Shown one piece after another: positions 5,059 to 24,516 of a stretch of DNA of 24,526 nt. Location: the IMG/VR virus record IMGVR_UViG_3300035698_024710, positions 1 to 24,526 of that record. The stretch is one strand, 5' to 3'. The first letter of the stretch is position 1, and each line of letters opens with the position of its first letter. The stretch comes from a virus. The position numbers and the translations under genes are program-made. Below the pieces are notes generated by a model. It made no database searches and was not told the DNA's origin. It saw nothing but the letters and a program-made list of their open reading frames with translations.

Positions 5059-5457
5059 TTAGTATGTCTCAAAGTACAAGTAAGCAGTAACAGCTTTACC
5101 TGCAGTCTGATTAGCTACTGTTATTGTAACACGACCATCCACTACAAACTCAGTGTATATTTCGTTAGTACCATCAAACGTGACATCCGTATCTGTAGTG
5201 TCTTGAGCTGGCGTTCTAGGGTACAACCATTTACTTGTATTGGCATTAGCTAAAGTAACTAATGTCTGAGCGGCACTCGCTGCTATGTCCGCAGGAGTGG
5301 TTATTGTGACATCCGTACCTGCAGCACTAGAAGCATCATAAACTACTTGCACCGCTAATAATCGCCCTTTAACAGGGACAGATGTTGCAACTGCATCTCC
5401 ACTTCCATCAGCCACTCCGCTTGCGAGGATCAGTCTCTTGTTTTTTGACGCTGGCAT
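5059..5457 (-). CDS. Beta-rich predicted virion protein
   Basis: 132 aa, rich in Ala, Thr, Val and Asp and nearly free of Cys and Met. After a short basic N-terminus (MPASKNKR) the sequence alternates strands and turns to the end, closing with VTITVANQTAGKAVTAYLYFETY. This is typical of jelly-roll or Ig-like virion proteins such as head decoration or fibre subunits. There is a GGTGAGAAT ribosome binding site before ATG. Its place among capsid-proximal genes supports a structural role; which role cannot be decided from sequence. Confidence 0.75.
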   Translation of the reverse strand: MPASKNKRLILASGVADGSGDAVATSVPVKGRLLAVQVVYDASSAAGTDVTITTPADIAASAAQTLVTLANANTSKWLYPRTPAQDTTDTDVTFDGTNEIYTEFVVDGRVTITVANQTAGKAVTAYLYFETY

Positions 5458-15890: not shown

Positions 15891-16571
15891 TTATGCGAAC
15901 TCAGTTAATCCTTTCTGCCCAATTAAACACACTTTCCTCAATGTCTCAATCTGCTTTTCTAACTTGTTAAGGTCTTTCGCAATACATTTGTAATGATAAG
16001 GCACATCAAACCCGACTAATAAAGACTTTTGTTTATCTGAAAATGGGTAATATTTCTCAAACCGTTTCGTGTTGAATCCTTCATGTGTTGCAAAGAATCG
16101 GTTAAATAGTATGTTTCTTCGGATGCTTCCAACCAACCTAAGAGCTTCTCGTGTCTTTGTTGATGTAATACCCAGTCCATTACTTCTAAAGAGCGCATCC
16201 CATTCGTAATCAGTAGATATATATAAGGGATCTTCGAGGTAGCTCGTCTCTTCAATGTATACAATGTATACAATGTATACAATGTATACATCACCATTTT
16301 CAAACACTCTCATTATGCCGACGTTTTTTGGTGTCCATTCAGGACTTTTTTTCTTATGTAATACTAAATAAATTTCTTCAAATGTGAACATATAAGCTCT
16401 GAACTGTCCTTTTAATCTTGAAAAATTATCTGTATCTCCTTTAATCTCAAAACCATGTAATTGCAAACTATTCTCATCTCCCACAATAAGATCAAATGGG
16501 TTTTCGTTTATACCTCTTACATTGCGTTCTGTTGTGAACTTCAAATTTGTGCTTTTGAGTTTATTAATCAA
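15891..16571 (-). CDS. PD-(D/E)XK nuclease-like protein with in-frame tandem repeat; start uncertain
   Basis: 226 aa counting from TTG 16571. The N-terminal 60 residues carry the nuclease core: E15 in a TTERNV helix, D27 in NPFDLIVGD, E42-x-K44 in GFEIKGD, then Q56 in RLKGQFRAY. The pattern is that of endonuclease-like folds used in recombination, restriction or homing. Residues about 94-106 read VYI four times, encoded by a 9-bp repeat. The C-terminal 120 residues are unfamiliar. The open frame extends upstream to TGA near 16653 with plausible coding (NSANEHYANKGDDILNIL) but no ATG/GTG/TTG before 16571, and the ribosome binding site AAAGGAGATGAT lies far from the TTG. A lost start or frameshift is likely. 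Confidence 0.7.
   Translation of the reverse strand: MINKLKSTNLKFTTERNVRGINENPFDLIVGDENSLQLHGFEIKGDTDNFSRLKGQFRAYMFTFEEIYLVLHKKKSPEWTPKNVGIMRVFENGDVYIVYIVYIVYIEETSYLEDPLYISTDYEWDALFRSNGLGITSTKTREALRLVGSIRRNILFNRFFATHEGFNTKRFEKYYPFSDKQKSLLVGFDVPYHYKCIAKDLNKLEKQIETLRKVCLIGQKGLTEFA
16254..16289 (-). repeat. Four perfect copies of a 9-bp tandem repeat in the nuclease gene
   Basis: Unit AATGTATAC on the plus strand at 16254, 16263, 16272 and 16281; coding sense GTATACATT (Val-Tyr-Ile). Copy-number change keeps the frame and adds or removes a strand-forming VYI triplet. Each unit contains the palindrome GTATAC. Confidence 0.95.
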
Positions 16572-16867: not shown

Positions 16868-17238
16868 TCCACCCCTTTGTCTTCCTTCTTCTTAAGGTAA
16901 GCTTGATAAGCAGCTCTAGCCCCTTCCCCAACATCCAACTTAGTTTCTTGCTGCACTTCTTGTCTCTCAGTATAACCCCTGTCCTTCCCTTTAGTCTTCA
17001 TAACAAATTGGACCTGTTTTGGATCTCCAAATAAAGATTGATCATATAACTTATTCTCAACTACATCTAAGAAATTTTCTACCTCATCTTCTATCAGTTC
17101 CTTAACGTCTTGATGCTTCTCTGCGTATCTGTAAACACTTTTACGATCTACTTTTATTCTGTCAGCTATTGTTTTGATTATTCCTCTACTACCTGTTATG
17201 GCTTTTTTGATGTTTTCTTTCTTAATTCGGAATCCCAT
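16864..17238 (-). CDS. Terminase small subunit-like DNA-binding protein
   Basis: 124 aa. Residues 5-42 make a helix-turn-helix (KKENIKKAITGSRGIIKTIADRIKV then DRKSVYRYAEKH). Residues 43-75 form a central oligomerisation helix (LIEDEVENFLDVVENKLYD). Residues 76-98 contain QVQFVMKTKGKDRGYTERQE, a segment typical of small terminases and related phage HTH proteins, where the form is FxLKTKGKxRGYxER. This subunit recognises viral DNA and hands it to the large subunit. Its start lies 17 bases inside the T5orf172 gene, so the two are co-translated. Separation from the large terminase by accessory genes is a little unusual. Confidence 0.8.
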   Translation of the reverse strand: MGFRIKKENIKKAITGSRGIIKTIADRIKVDRKSVYRYAEKHQDVKELIEDEVENFLDVVENKLYDQSLFGDPKQVQFVMKTKGKDRGYTERQEVQQETKLDVGEGARAAYQAYLKKKEDKGVE

Positions 17239-17824
17239 TTTGTGACCTTTGTGGCTCTGGTTTGAATACGTCCTCGAGTATTTGTTTTACTTGTGGTATT
17301 GGTTGGTAGCATTCTGTGCTTGTTTTGCCGTTTAGTTTGATGATTTGTGCTAGGTGTTGCTTTAATTTGTGTTTTATGCCTGTTTCTAGGTGTCCTTCGT
17401 TGTATCTTATTTGTAGTAGTTCAAATTCTTCTCCGAACTCTACGTCTTTTAGGTTTAGTAATCTTTTCTTTATATTCCTTGTTATTCCTATCTTGTAATA
17501 TCCTTTATTTTTTGATTTTAGCCAGTAAAGGTGTGATTCTTTTGATTTCTTTCCAATTCTGGAGTTACTAGAGATGTCAAATAAGTCCAAGTATTCTCCA
17601 AAAATTGCGTCTGTTACTCTACCATATATGTACATCATGTATTCATCCTTCCTTCTGAAGAAATATGCTATCATCCATCCTAAGTATTGAAGCTCACGTG
17701 CCCTTTCTTGAAAAGTATACCTTGCTTGGAATCCATAATAGTACAAAATCTTTCCATTTTCAAGTGTTATAGGAAGATAGTCTTCAGACTTTTTCTCAGT
17801 TGAAATCAATATTTGTTCTACCAT
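17222..17824 (-). CDS. T5orf172/Mug113-type (GIY-YIG-like) domain protein
   Basis: 200 aa. The C-terminal domain, residues about 99-178, matches T5orf172: LYWLKSKNKGYYKIGIT (Y110, KIGIT 111-115), R121 in NIKKRL, FELLQIRY, the helix with E147 and H152, and TECYQPIPQV. This family is distantly related to GIY-YIG nucleases and is common as a fusion partner in virus genomes. The N-terminal 95 residues (aromatic, YYYGFQARYTFQ...) are not recognised and may bind DNA or a partner. It overlaps the small terminase gene by 17 bases. It could be a homing-type or DNA-modifying nuclease; activity is not certain because some members lack it. Confidence 0.8.
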   Translation of the reverse strand: MVEQILISTEKKSEDYLPITLENGKILYYYGFQARYTFQERARELQYLGWMIAYFFRRKDEYMMYIYGRVTDAIFGEYLDLFDISSNSRIGKKSKESHLYWLKSKNKGYYKIGITRNIKKRLLNLKDVEFGEEFELLQIRYNEGHLETGIKHKLKQHLAQIIKLNGKTSTECYQPIPQVKQILEDVFKPEPQRSQNGIPN

Positions 17825-17835
17825 CTTTGTTTTTT

Positions 17836-17852
17836 GCTTAAAGGTTTTAAGC
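17836..17852. promoter_or_regulatory. Perfect short palindrome before the T5orf172 gene
   Basis: GCTTAAA-ggt-TTTAAGC, 7-bp arms with a 3-bp centre, lies 12-28 nt ahead of ATG 17824. It is too close to be followed by a T-tract. It may be an operator over a TTTAAG TATA-like element. Confidence 0.45.
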
Positions 17853-17880
17853 GTTGATTGTGTTGTTTGATCTTTGATTA

Positions 17881-18073
17881 TGGGTTGTGCCCGATTCGAA
17901 CGGGAGTTTACATGCCAGAAATGCCAACTACCAAAAAAGGCATAGCAGGGAGGTTATTAAAGAACAAAGGCTGAAAAACCCATGACAGAAACGTCATTGG
18001 TAAAAAGACCTGCTTGCTCTTCTTCATTGGCCCACATAAGTCCTTTCCAAAAAAGGACTAGTAACCACAACCC
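17881..18073 (-). ncRNA. tRNA-like structured RNA with long interior and internal ORF
   Basis: Transcript-sense ends: GGGTTGTG (18073-18066) pairs perfectly with CACAACCC (17889-17882), followed by discriminator A (17881). Adjacent is CCCG-TTCGAAT-CGGG (17904-17890), a canonical T-arm with a 7-nt TTCGAAT loop. Acceptor plus T stem total 12 bp (8+4), as in tRNAs. A further stem GTTAC (18065-18061) with GTAAAC (17911-17906, one bulge) closes a three-way junction. The interior of about 150 nt has a hairpin AGTCCTTT/AAAGGACT (18059-18039) and an ORF from ATG 18037 (MWANEEEQAG...) that ends in tandem UAA UAA at 17959-17954. No D-arm or anticodon arm is evident and no CCA is encoded. It may be a tmRNA-like RNA, a tRNA with a large intron, or a new structured RNA. 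The gene-free stretch 17825-18082 holds only this and the palindrome. Confidence 0.55.
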
Positions 18074-18082
18074 GATAAATGT

Positions 18083-23271: not shown

Positions 23272-23450
23272 TGTACTAACACCTTTGCTTCTTCTGCTTT
23301 GAACTCTCTAACAATTTTGGCCCAGCGTTGCTCAACACTTCCAATACTTCTATCCATTTCTTTAGCGATCTCAGTGTTAGTTTTCTTAAGGTCTTTCATC
23401 ATTTGCAATGTGGTGTCTTCAACATTTGTCCAGGTAATGTAGTTTCTCAT
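23268..23450 (-). CDS. Myb/SANT-like helix-turn-helix protein
   Basis: 60 aa. One DNA-binding unit: ITWTNVEDTTLQMMKDL, then TNTEIAKEMDRSIGSVEQRW, with spaced Trp residues and a recognition helix ending QRWAKI, as in Myb/SANT and GcrA-type domains. ATGA overlaps on both sides couple it to the HIRAN gene upstream and the next gene. Likely a regulator of viral or host genes. Confidence 0.75.
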   Translation of the reverse strand: MRNYITWTNVEDTTLQMMKDLKKTNTEIAKEMDRSIGSVEQRWAKIVREFKAEEAKVLVQ

Positions 23451-23746
23451 TTTACTCTCCAGCAGTAAATATTGACTCCTACGTTTTGGTCATCTCCACC
23501 TGTTACGTTCTGACAATTGCAAGCGTACACGTAACCTTCTTTATACAATGGACTCATTTGTTCAGCTAACTCTTTACTAAGATAGCCTAATTGTCCATTA
23601 CGACAATACACTGCCATAGCATTAGAGTCTACTTTATTGTGTGGTTCTGGCACGAGCCAGAGCATTTCTCCTTGTGGAATCTTACGTGCGTACTCTTGAC
23701 CGTTGCCAAAAGTAATCCCCCTAATTTTTGTATTAAATTCTTTCAT
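23447..23746 (-). CDS. HIRAN domain protein
   Basis: 99 aa, almost exactly one HIRAN domain: FNTKIRGITFGNGQEYA (3-19), LWLVPEPHNKVDSNAMAVYC (29-48; the E-P-x-N-x-x-D-x-N-A-x-A-V pattern), GQLGYLSKELAEQMSPL, and a closing CNCQNVTGG...GVNIYC strand. In eukaryotic HLTF the domain binds free 3' ssDNA ends; stand-alone HIRAN proteins are common in phages and likely act in recognising damaged or replicating DNA. It starts 3 bases after the RHH gene. Confidence 0.85.
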   Translation of the reverse strand: MKEFNTKIRGITFGNGQEYARKIPQGEMLWLVPEPHNKVDSNAMAVYCRNGQLGYLSKELAEQMSPLYKEGYVYACNCQNVTGGDDQNVGVNIYCWRVK

Positions 23747-24296: not shown

Positions 24297-24440
24297 TTTT
24301 TGCACTTGGAACTTTTGTCCCATATTTAACGCTTTTTCTTCTAATCTCTTGTATTGAATATAATGCAATTTCATGTTTTCTTTGCATTCTTCTTCGTTCC
24401 TGAACTCTCCGTTTAATCGACTTTTCCATTTCATGTACAT
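24288..24440 (-). CDS. Small basic protein near the window end
   Basis: 50 aa from ATG 24440 (or 24434): MYMKWKSRLNGEFRNEEEC followed by KENMKLHYIQYKRLEEKAL and a Lys/Gln end. Helical and charged. Its first part is copied, inverted, in the right arm at 24460-24516 with one change (Glu to Lys). The longer frame to 24509 runs through that inverted copy and is an artefact of the palindrome. Function unknown. Confidence 0.5.
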   Translation of the reverse strand: MYMKWKSRLNGEFRNEEECKENMKLHYIQYKRLEEKALNMGQKFQVQKCI

Positions 24441-24516
24441 TAGTTTGTGATAAAAGGAGAGTCGATTAAACGGAGAGTTCAGGAACAAAGAAGAATGCAA
24501 AGAAAACATGAAATTG
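24366..24516. repeat. 57-bp inverted repeat at the right edge (24366-24422 / 24460-24516)
   Basis: The arms are reverse complements with one mismatch (24395 against 24487) around a 37-bp spacer. After the right arm, the last 10 bases (AAAAGTCGAT) return to the beginning of the same unit, as if the sequence were starting another copy. This looks like a terminal fold-back, a hairpin end or a chimeric assembly. Confidence 0.9.

Follow-up and report, generated by a model that had tools for sequence, protein, structure and literature searches.

The question raised by this locus is what kind of RNA carries the amino-acid end of a tRNA at its two termini while no tRNA body can be recognised between them. 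The window, that is, the whole stretch of 24,526 nt that was analysed, is a 24.5-kb tailed-virus record that encodes a protease, a portal, a terminase and a major capsid protein belonging to the SU10/phage-capsid families; it is probably a fragment, the records of relatives reaching 35-44 kb. The predicted RNA of 193 bases is read on the minus strand from 18073 to 17881 and is contained in the intergenic gap 17825-18082 (258 nt), the largest internal gap of this compact genome. The upstream gene ends 9 nt before the RNA and the next gene starts 56 nt after it, the RNA having the direction of the virus genes here, all of which are on the minus strand. A gene for a T5orf172-domain (GIY-YIG-like) nuclease lies directly downstream of the RNA (17222-17824).

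All elements named in a preliminary description of this DNA (an acceptor stem, a stacked T arm, a discriminator A, an ORF and tandem stops) were located, and all lie on the minus strand. GGGTTGTG (18066-18073), the 5' strand of the acceptor-like stem, forms eight of eight Watson-Crick pairs with the 3' strand, CACAACCC (17882-17889), and is followed by an insert of 161 nt (17905-18065) in the place of the D and anticodon arms. The T arm (CCCG-TTCGAAT-CGGG, 17890-17904) has a canonical loop on a 4-bp stem, and an A at 17881 takes the discriminator position; CCA is not encoded, the next bases being TAATC. The 8-bp acceptor stem is set directly on the 4-bp T stem, giving a continuous tRNA-like helix of 12 bp in which the boundary between the two is shifted by one pair (8+4, as against 7+5 in tRNA). 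A U:C mismatch at 49:65 occupies the place of the fifth T-stem pair, leaving a T stem weaker than normal, and position 8 is G, not U, and pairs with C65. The acceptor stem, the T arm with a TTCRANY loop and the discriminator expected of a tRNA were all found, as was the acceptor/T-arm helix without a decoding half expected of a tRNA mimic. Since the RNA has no anticodon arm, it cannot decode.

The tRNA likeness was evaluated with a scan that requires a canonical T loop, a fully paired stem below it and, continuing that stem, an acceptor strand whose partner lies at most 400 nt upstream; the score is by pair strength. The window RNA scored 33; among the dinucleotide shuffles made of the whole window, 2500 in number, the best scored 31, which puts the probability of the likeness arising by chance below about 4e-4 for the whole window. 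In the predicted ensemble the acceptor helix has a pairing probability of 0.95-1.0, and the predicted fold of the whole 193 nt has -63.7 kcal/mol (z = -3.6). The insert had been described as a structured spacer of about 150 nt; it measures 161 nt, and its stability when folded alone is only moderate for its composition (z = -2.05), so that much of the excess stability is supplied by the tRNA-like helix. The first hairpin of the insert, AGTCCTTTT-TTG-GAAAGGACT (18039-18059), is present in both the minimum free energy and the centroid structures and might stand in for a D arm. Further on, a possible stem AGCAGG/CCTGCT, taken from the stem list and only partly present in the predicted fold of the 193 nt, would close the stretch 17944-18014, which contains the tandem stops and the greater part of the ORF. 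The predicted frame, 26 codons (MWANEEEQAGLFTNDVSVMGFSAFVL) from an ATG at 18037 with AAAGGA before it and then TAA (17957-18037), is followed by a second TAA (17954-17956); by themselves, the ORF and its tandem stops are no evidence, since 26 codons easily arise by chance in an AT-rich stretch.

Relatives of the terminase were found in MAGs named Woesearchaeota, Nanoarchaeota and Bathycorpusculum, in some named as bacteria, and on many IMG/VR contigs. The related viruses carry ordinary and intron-bearing tRNAs, among them a tRNA-Met with a 27-nt intron beside the anticodon (L025:12037-12137) and, in L205/L206, a tRNA-Thr and a tRNA-Met with introns of 76 nt and 33 nt, respectively, likewise beside the anticodon (in L205 at 5085-5232 and 5347-5450). 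Because these introns adjoin the anticodon, the position of archaeal tRNA introns, an archaeal host is likely; the earlier suggestion of an archaeal-type virus fits both these introns and the terminase relatives in archaeal MAGs. One tRNA-like gene of a relative, L223:12524-12602, has a normal D arm and an enlarged anticodon loop (CCTAGGTTAAAACAGTA), and the ARAGORN call of tRNA-Ser with an 8-nt intron is doubtful for it.

In 2.02 Mb of non-redundant relatives, the scan by which the structure is itself defined picked out four structures without a tRNA body at scores of at least 30, where the expectation from 24 shuffled sets is 0.25: the window RNA (33), L042 (33.5), L194 (33) and L208/L209/L211 (30.5), the last three being identical over the compared stretch and counted once. 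Three of the four scored at least 33, with 0.04 expected at 32 or above in the shuffled sets, and the score of the L042 RNA was reached in none of 4000 shuffles of L042. Nearly all other matches scoring at least 29 are genuine tRNAs, a sign that the scan works as intended. All four structures lie outside proven reading frames and on the coding strand, and no ARAGORN or Rfam call was obtained for the L042, L194 and L208 RNAs.

L042 is the nearest relative of the window virus by terminase (49%); with its own terminase as the query, distant terminases only were recovered. Its RNA (L042:66-232) lies just upstream of the terminase gene, stopping about 10 nt short of the likely terminase start, and consists of eight or nine acceptor pairs, a 4-bp T stem with a TTCGATT loop, an A discriminator and a spacing of 142 nt. 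It has the G8:C65 pair and the U at position 49 in common with the window RNA, and a pseudoknot of CATACG/CGTATG with GGCCGGG/CCCGGCC is a possible model for it. A reading of the L042 RNA as tRNA-Ala(UGC) or tRNA-Gly(CCC) with odd arms was rejected, its excision score not being above controls (27/100 at or above). The RNAs at L194:2370-2475 and L208:4757-4861 have perfect 7+5 acceptor/T-arm helices, lie in intergenic gaps and have no recognisable D arm; they could be very divergent tRNAs with long variable arms, and they are less clear cases than the window and L042 RNAs. The insert sequence is not shared among the four examples, and its stability also differs (z = -1.45 in L042; the L194 and L208 inserts are not stable). 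A separate intergenic RNA candidate of about 230 nt was seen at L013:486-721 (z = -3.3; no Rfam match), where a tRNA-like minihelix of 8+5 pairs with a TTCAAAT loop (L013:492-534) precedes a structured RNA stretch of about 190 nt, made up of a domain closed by CGCAGCACG/TGCGTGCTGCG and then a third domain. The helices of the window, L042, L194, L208 and L013 are all fully paired with bases differing at 10 of 11 pairs, which is not independent evidence of pairing, since pairing was what they were selected for and they do not come from an alignment of homologues. Searches by DNA similarity in a phage collection, 371 genomes of the archaeal phylum and the fetched loci gave short chance matches only (the best-looking, L318, was rejected because its T loop is missing), and an exact-motif scan of viral contigs gave no match; the search for homologues in related contigs, which had been proposed as a check on the stems, thus returned none alignable in sequence in these collections.

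Among the alternatives proposed at the outset was a viral tRNA with a large intron; the form weighed here is a functional tRNA with several or oddly placed archaeal introns that would be normal after splicing. The archaeal setting and the introns of 27, 33 and 76 nt in tRNAs of relatives speak for it, and archaeal tRNAs with bulge-helix-bulge introns (PMC4090602) likewise have a long interruption between the tRNA ends. For the excision test, every single segment whose removal leaves 70-97 nt was removed and the product scored with ARAGORN, with shuffled middles as controls. The tRNA-Thr and tRNA-Met of L205 and the tRNA-Met of L025, used as positive controls, beat 100/100 shuffled-middle controls, whereas the score of the window RNA (95.2) was matched or beaten by 86/100 controls with shuffled inserts; the corresponding counts of controls at or above the score were 27/100, 9/100 and 48/100 for L042, L194 and L208, respectively. 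On removal of two segments, 13 of 32 controls scored at least as high as the window RNA, so that, unlike the archaeal intron-containing tRNAs, it yields no tRNA after one or two excisions. No D arm and no 7-nt anticodon loop on a 5-bp stem was found in it, directly or after excision, nor any anticodon stem suitably spaced from the T arm that has U33 and R37, and G at position 8 also argues against a functional tRNA. The covariance check that had been suggested, carried out with ARAGORN (introns up to 250 nt) and Rfam, called neither a tRNA nor a tmRNA in the window RNA, and we consider the intron reading improbable. Still lower in probability, and the lowest of the readings weighed here, is a reduced form of tmRNA, or a tmRNA-like RNA, that carries a tag frame (ANEEEQAG... 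TAA TAA), a reading that the preliminary description had put forward on the grounds of the tandem-stop ORF within a tRNA-like frame. Separated acceptor and T arm, a long structured insert, a short ORF and tandem stops are indeed features shared with tmRNA (RF00023 and relatives), and phage tmRNAs are known, including that of phage DS6A, which has no tag frame and inhibits the endogenous tmRNA (PMC11915505); this is a point in favour. The window RNA is, however, half the usual length, has no D-loop analogue and no G-U at the third acceptor pair, and matched no Rfam tmRNA model even at lax E-values; sub-threshold RF00023 matches in archaeal MAGs were short stretches, probably of ordinary tRNAs. 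SmpB was not found in 10 virus records (window included) or in two archaeal MAGs by a search that was positive for 10/10 bacteria and 0/4 archaea. There is no proven archaeal tmRNA, and 73 detections in MAGs of archaea may result from misbinning (PMC11915505). In the L042 RNA, compared as the second example and not an alignable homologue of the window RNA, no clear counterpart of the tag-like frame was seen.

The main rival is a decaying viral tRNA pseudogene, which needs no function: insertions and mutations would have removed the body, decay not yet having reached the acceptor and T arm. Relatives carry many tRNA genes near packaging genes, some of them with odd arms (L223, the tRNA-Thr of L205), and the differences in insert sequence and stability between the examples are also in keeping with decay; the four examples may be independent events or decayed tRNAs. 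Neutral decay would not, however, leave 12 pairs, the T loop and the discriminator intact and the rest unrecognisable, and the same state, with the top half intact and the body gone, recurs in four non-redundant relatives; we regard decay as unlikely, though well ahead of the two readings that follow. Attachment sites in tRNAs usually have TTCGAAT together with an acceptor 3' end as their core, and the presence of this combination here is a point for a host tRNA gene's 3' end having been copied and used for integration, with a complement upstream by chance. That would leave the perfect 8-nt partner on the 5' side unexplained, no integrase family was found among the scanned proteins of the window (a fragmentary record), and no similar tRNA 3' end was present within 3 mismatches in the 371 genomes of the phylum; an attachment site is accordingly given very little probability. 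The same small probability is assigned to a short protein gene with a leader hairpin and a merely fortuitous tRNA likeness, for which the 26 codons and the AAAGGA before the ATG would speak, against which stand the low chance of that likeness in the window and the lack of a homologous peptide frame in L042.

The reading as a new tRNA-mimic RNA, one of the options originally listed, is the best of these, because the top half is intact, there is no tRNA body and relatives have RNAs of the same build. On this architecture and its recurrence, we give an even chance to the window RNA being a non-coding viral RNA that mimics a tRNA's top half. It probably descends from a viral tRNA gene that lost its lower half or had it replaced. 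For RNase P, tRNase Z and the CCA-adding enzyme, the acceptor/T-arm helix is the main site of action and the anticodon arm is not needed, so that excision of such an RNA from the operon transcript and a CCA end would be expected. The likeliest course for the window RNA would be that host RNase P and tRNase Z, reading this helix, cut it from the transcript and that CCA is then added; the helix would give a small RNA stable, tRNA-like ends. It could serve as a decoy or effector engaging a host factor that reads the elbow and acceptor of tRNAs, the insert being a domain particular to the virus, and such a role at the host tRNA-handling machinery would be its most likely use, as a weakly supported guess.

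Mimicry of tRNA is known from RNA viruses, tmRNA and some cellular RNAs; the 3' ends of plant RNA viruses and mascRNA are acted on by tRNA enzymes because they imitate the acceptor/T helix. The window RNA imitates this helix likewise, but it belongs to a DNA virus, probably of archaea, its acceptor strands flank a long insert, and it has no sequence relation to those RNAs. No report of tRNA mimicry in archaeal viruses was found in the part of the literature covered. With the tRNA genes of archaeal tailed viruses (e.g. HGTV-1, PMC8651126) it shares the acceptor stem, T arm and discriminator, and it lies within reach of the packaging genes, as do tRNAs in several relatives; it differs from them in having no D or anticodon arm, in its length of 193 nt, in the 8+4 in place of the 7+5 arrangement and in receiving no tRNA call from ARAGORN or Rfam. 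The grouping of the four modelled RNAs into one class is tentative, since the insert is unconserved among the examples, no close relative was found in the collections searched, the record is probably a fragment and the RNAs are predicted. That they represent a recurrent tRNA-mimic class of DPANN-type archaeal tailed viruses, with an intact helix and diverse inserts, matured by the host and aimed at translation or defence, is a doubtful proposal, if one that we rate slightly above decay of a tRNA gene. If real, such RNAs would be a class missed by tRNA finding with ARAGORN and Rfam, would reveal what portion of a tRNA is required by processing enzymes of archaea, and would offer a route to viral RNAs acting on translation or on tRNA-cutting defences in uncultured archaea.

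Three further features of the window were recorded. A short tandem repeat (16253-16291) inside the ORF 15891-16571 gives YIVYIVYIVYI in the protein. Near the contig end, a HIRAN-domain gene is located at 23447-23746. At the contig end itself (24366-24516), a 57-bp inverted repeat, 98% complementary and with a 37-nt loop, is the reason for the matches of several plant miRNA models to this stretch, and is a hairpin of the terminus or of replication, or else an artefact of fold-back assembly.
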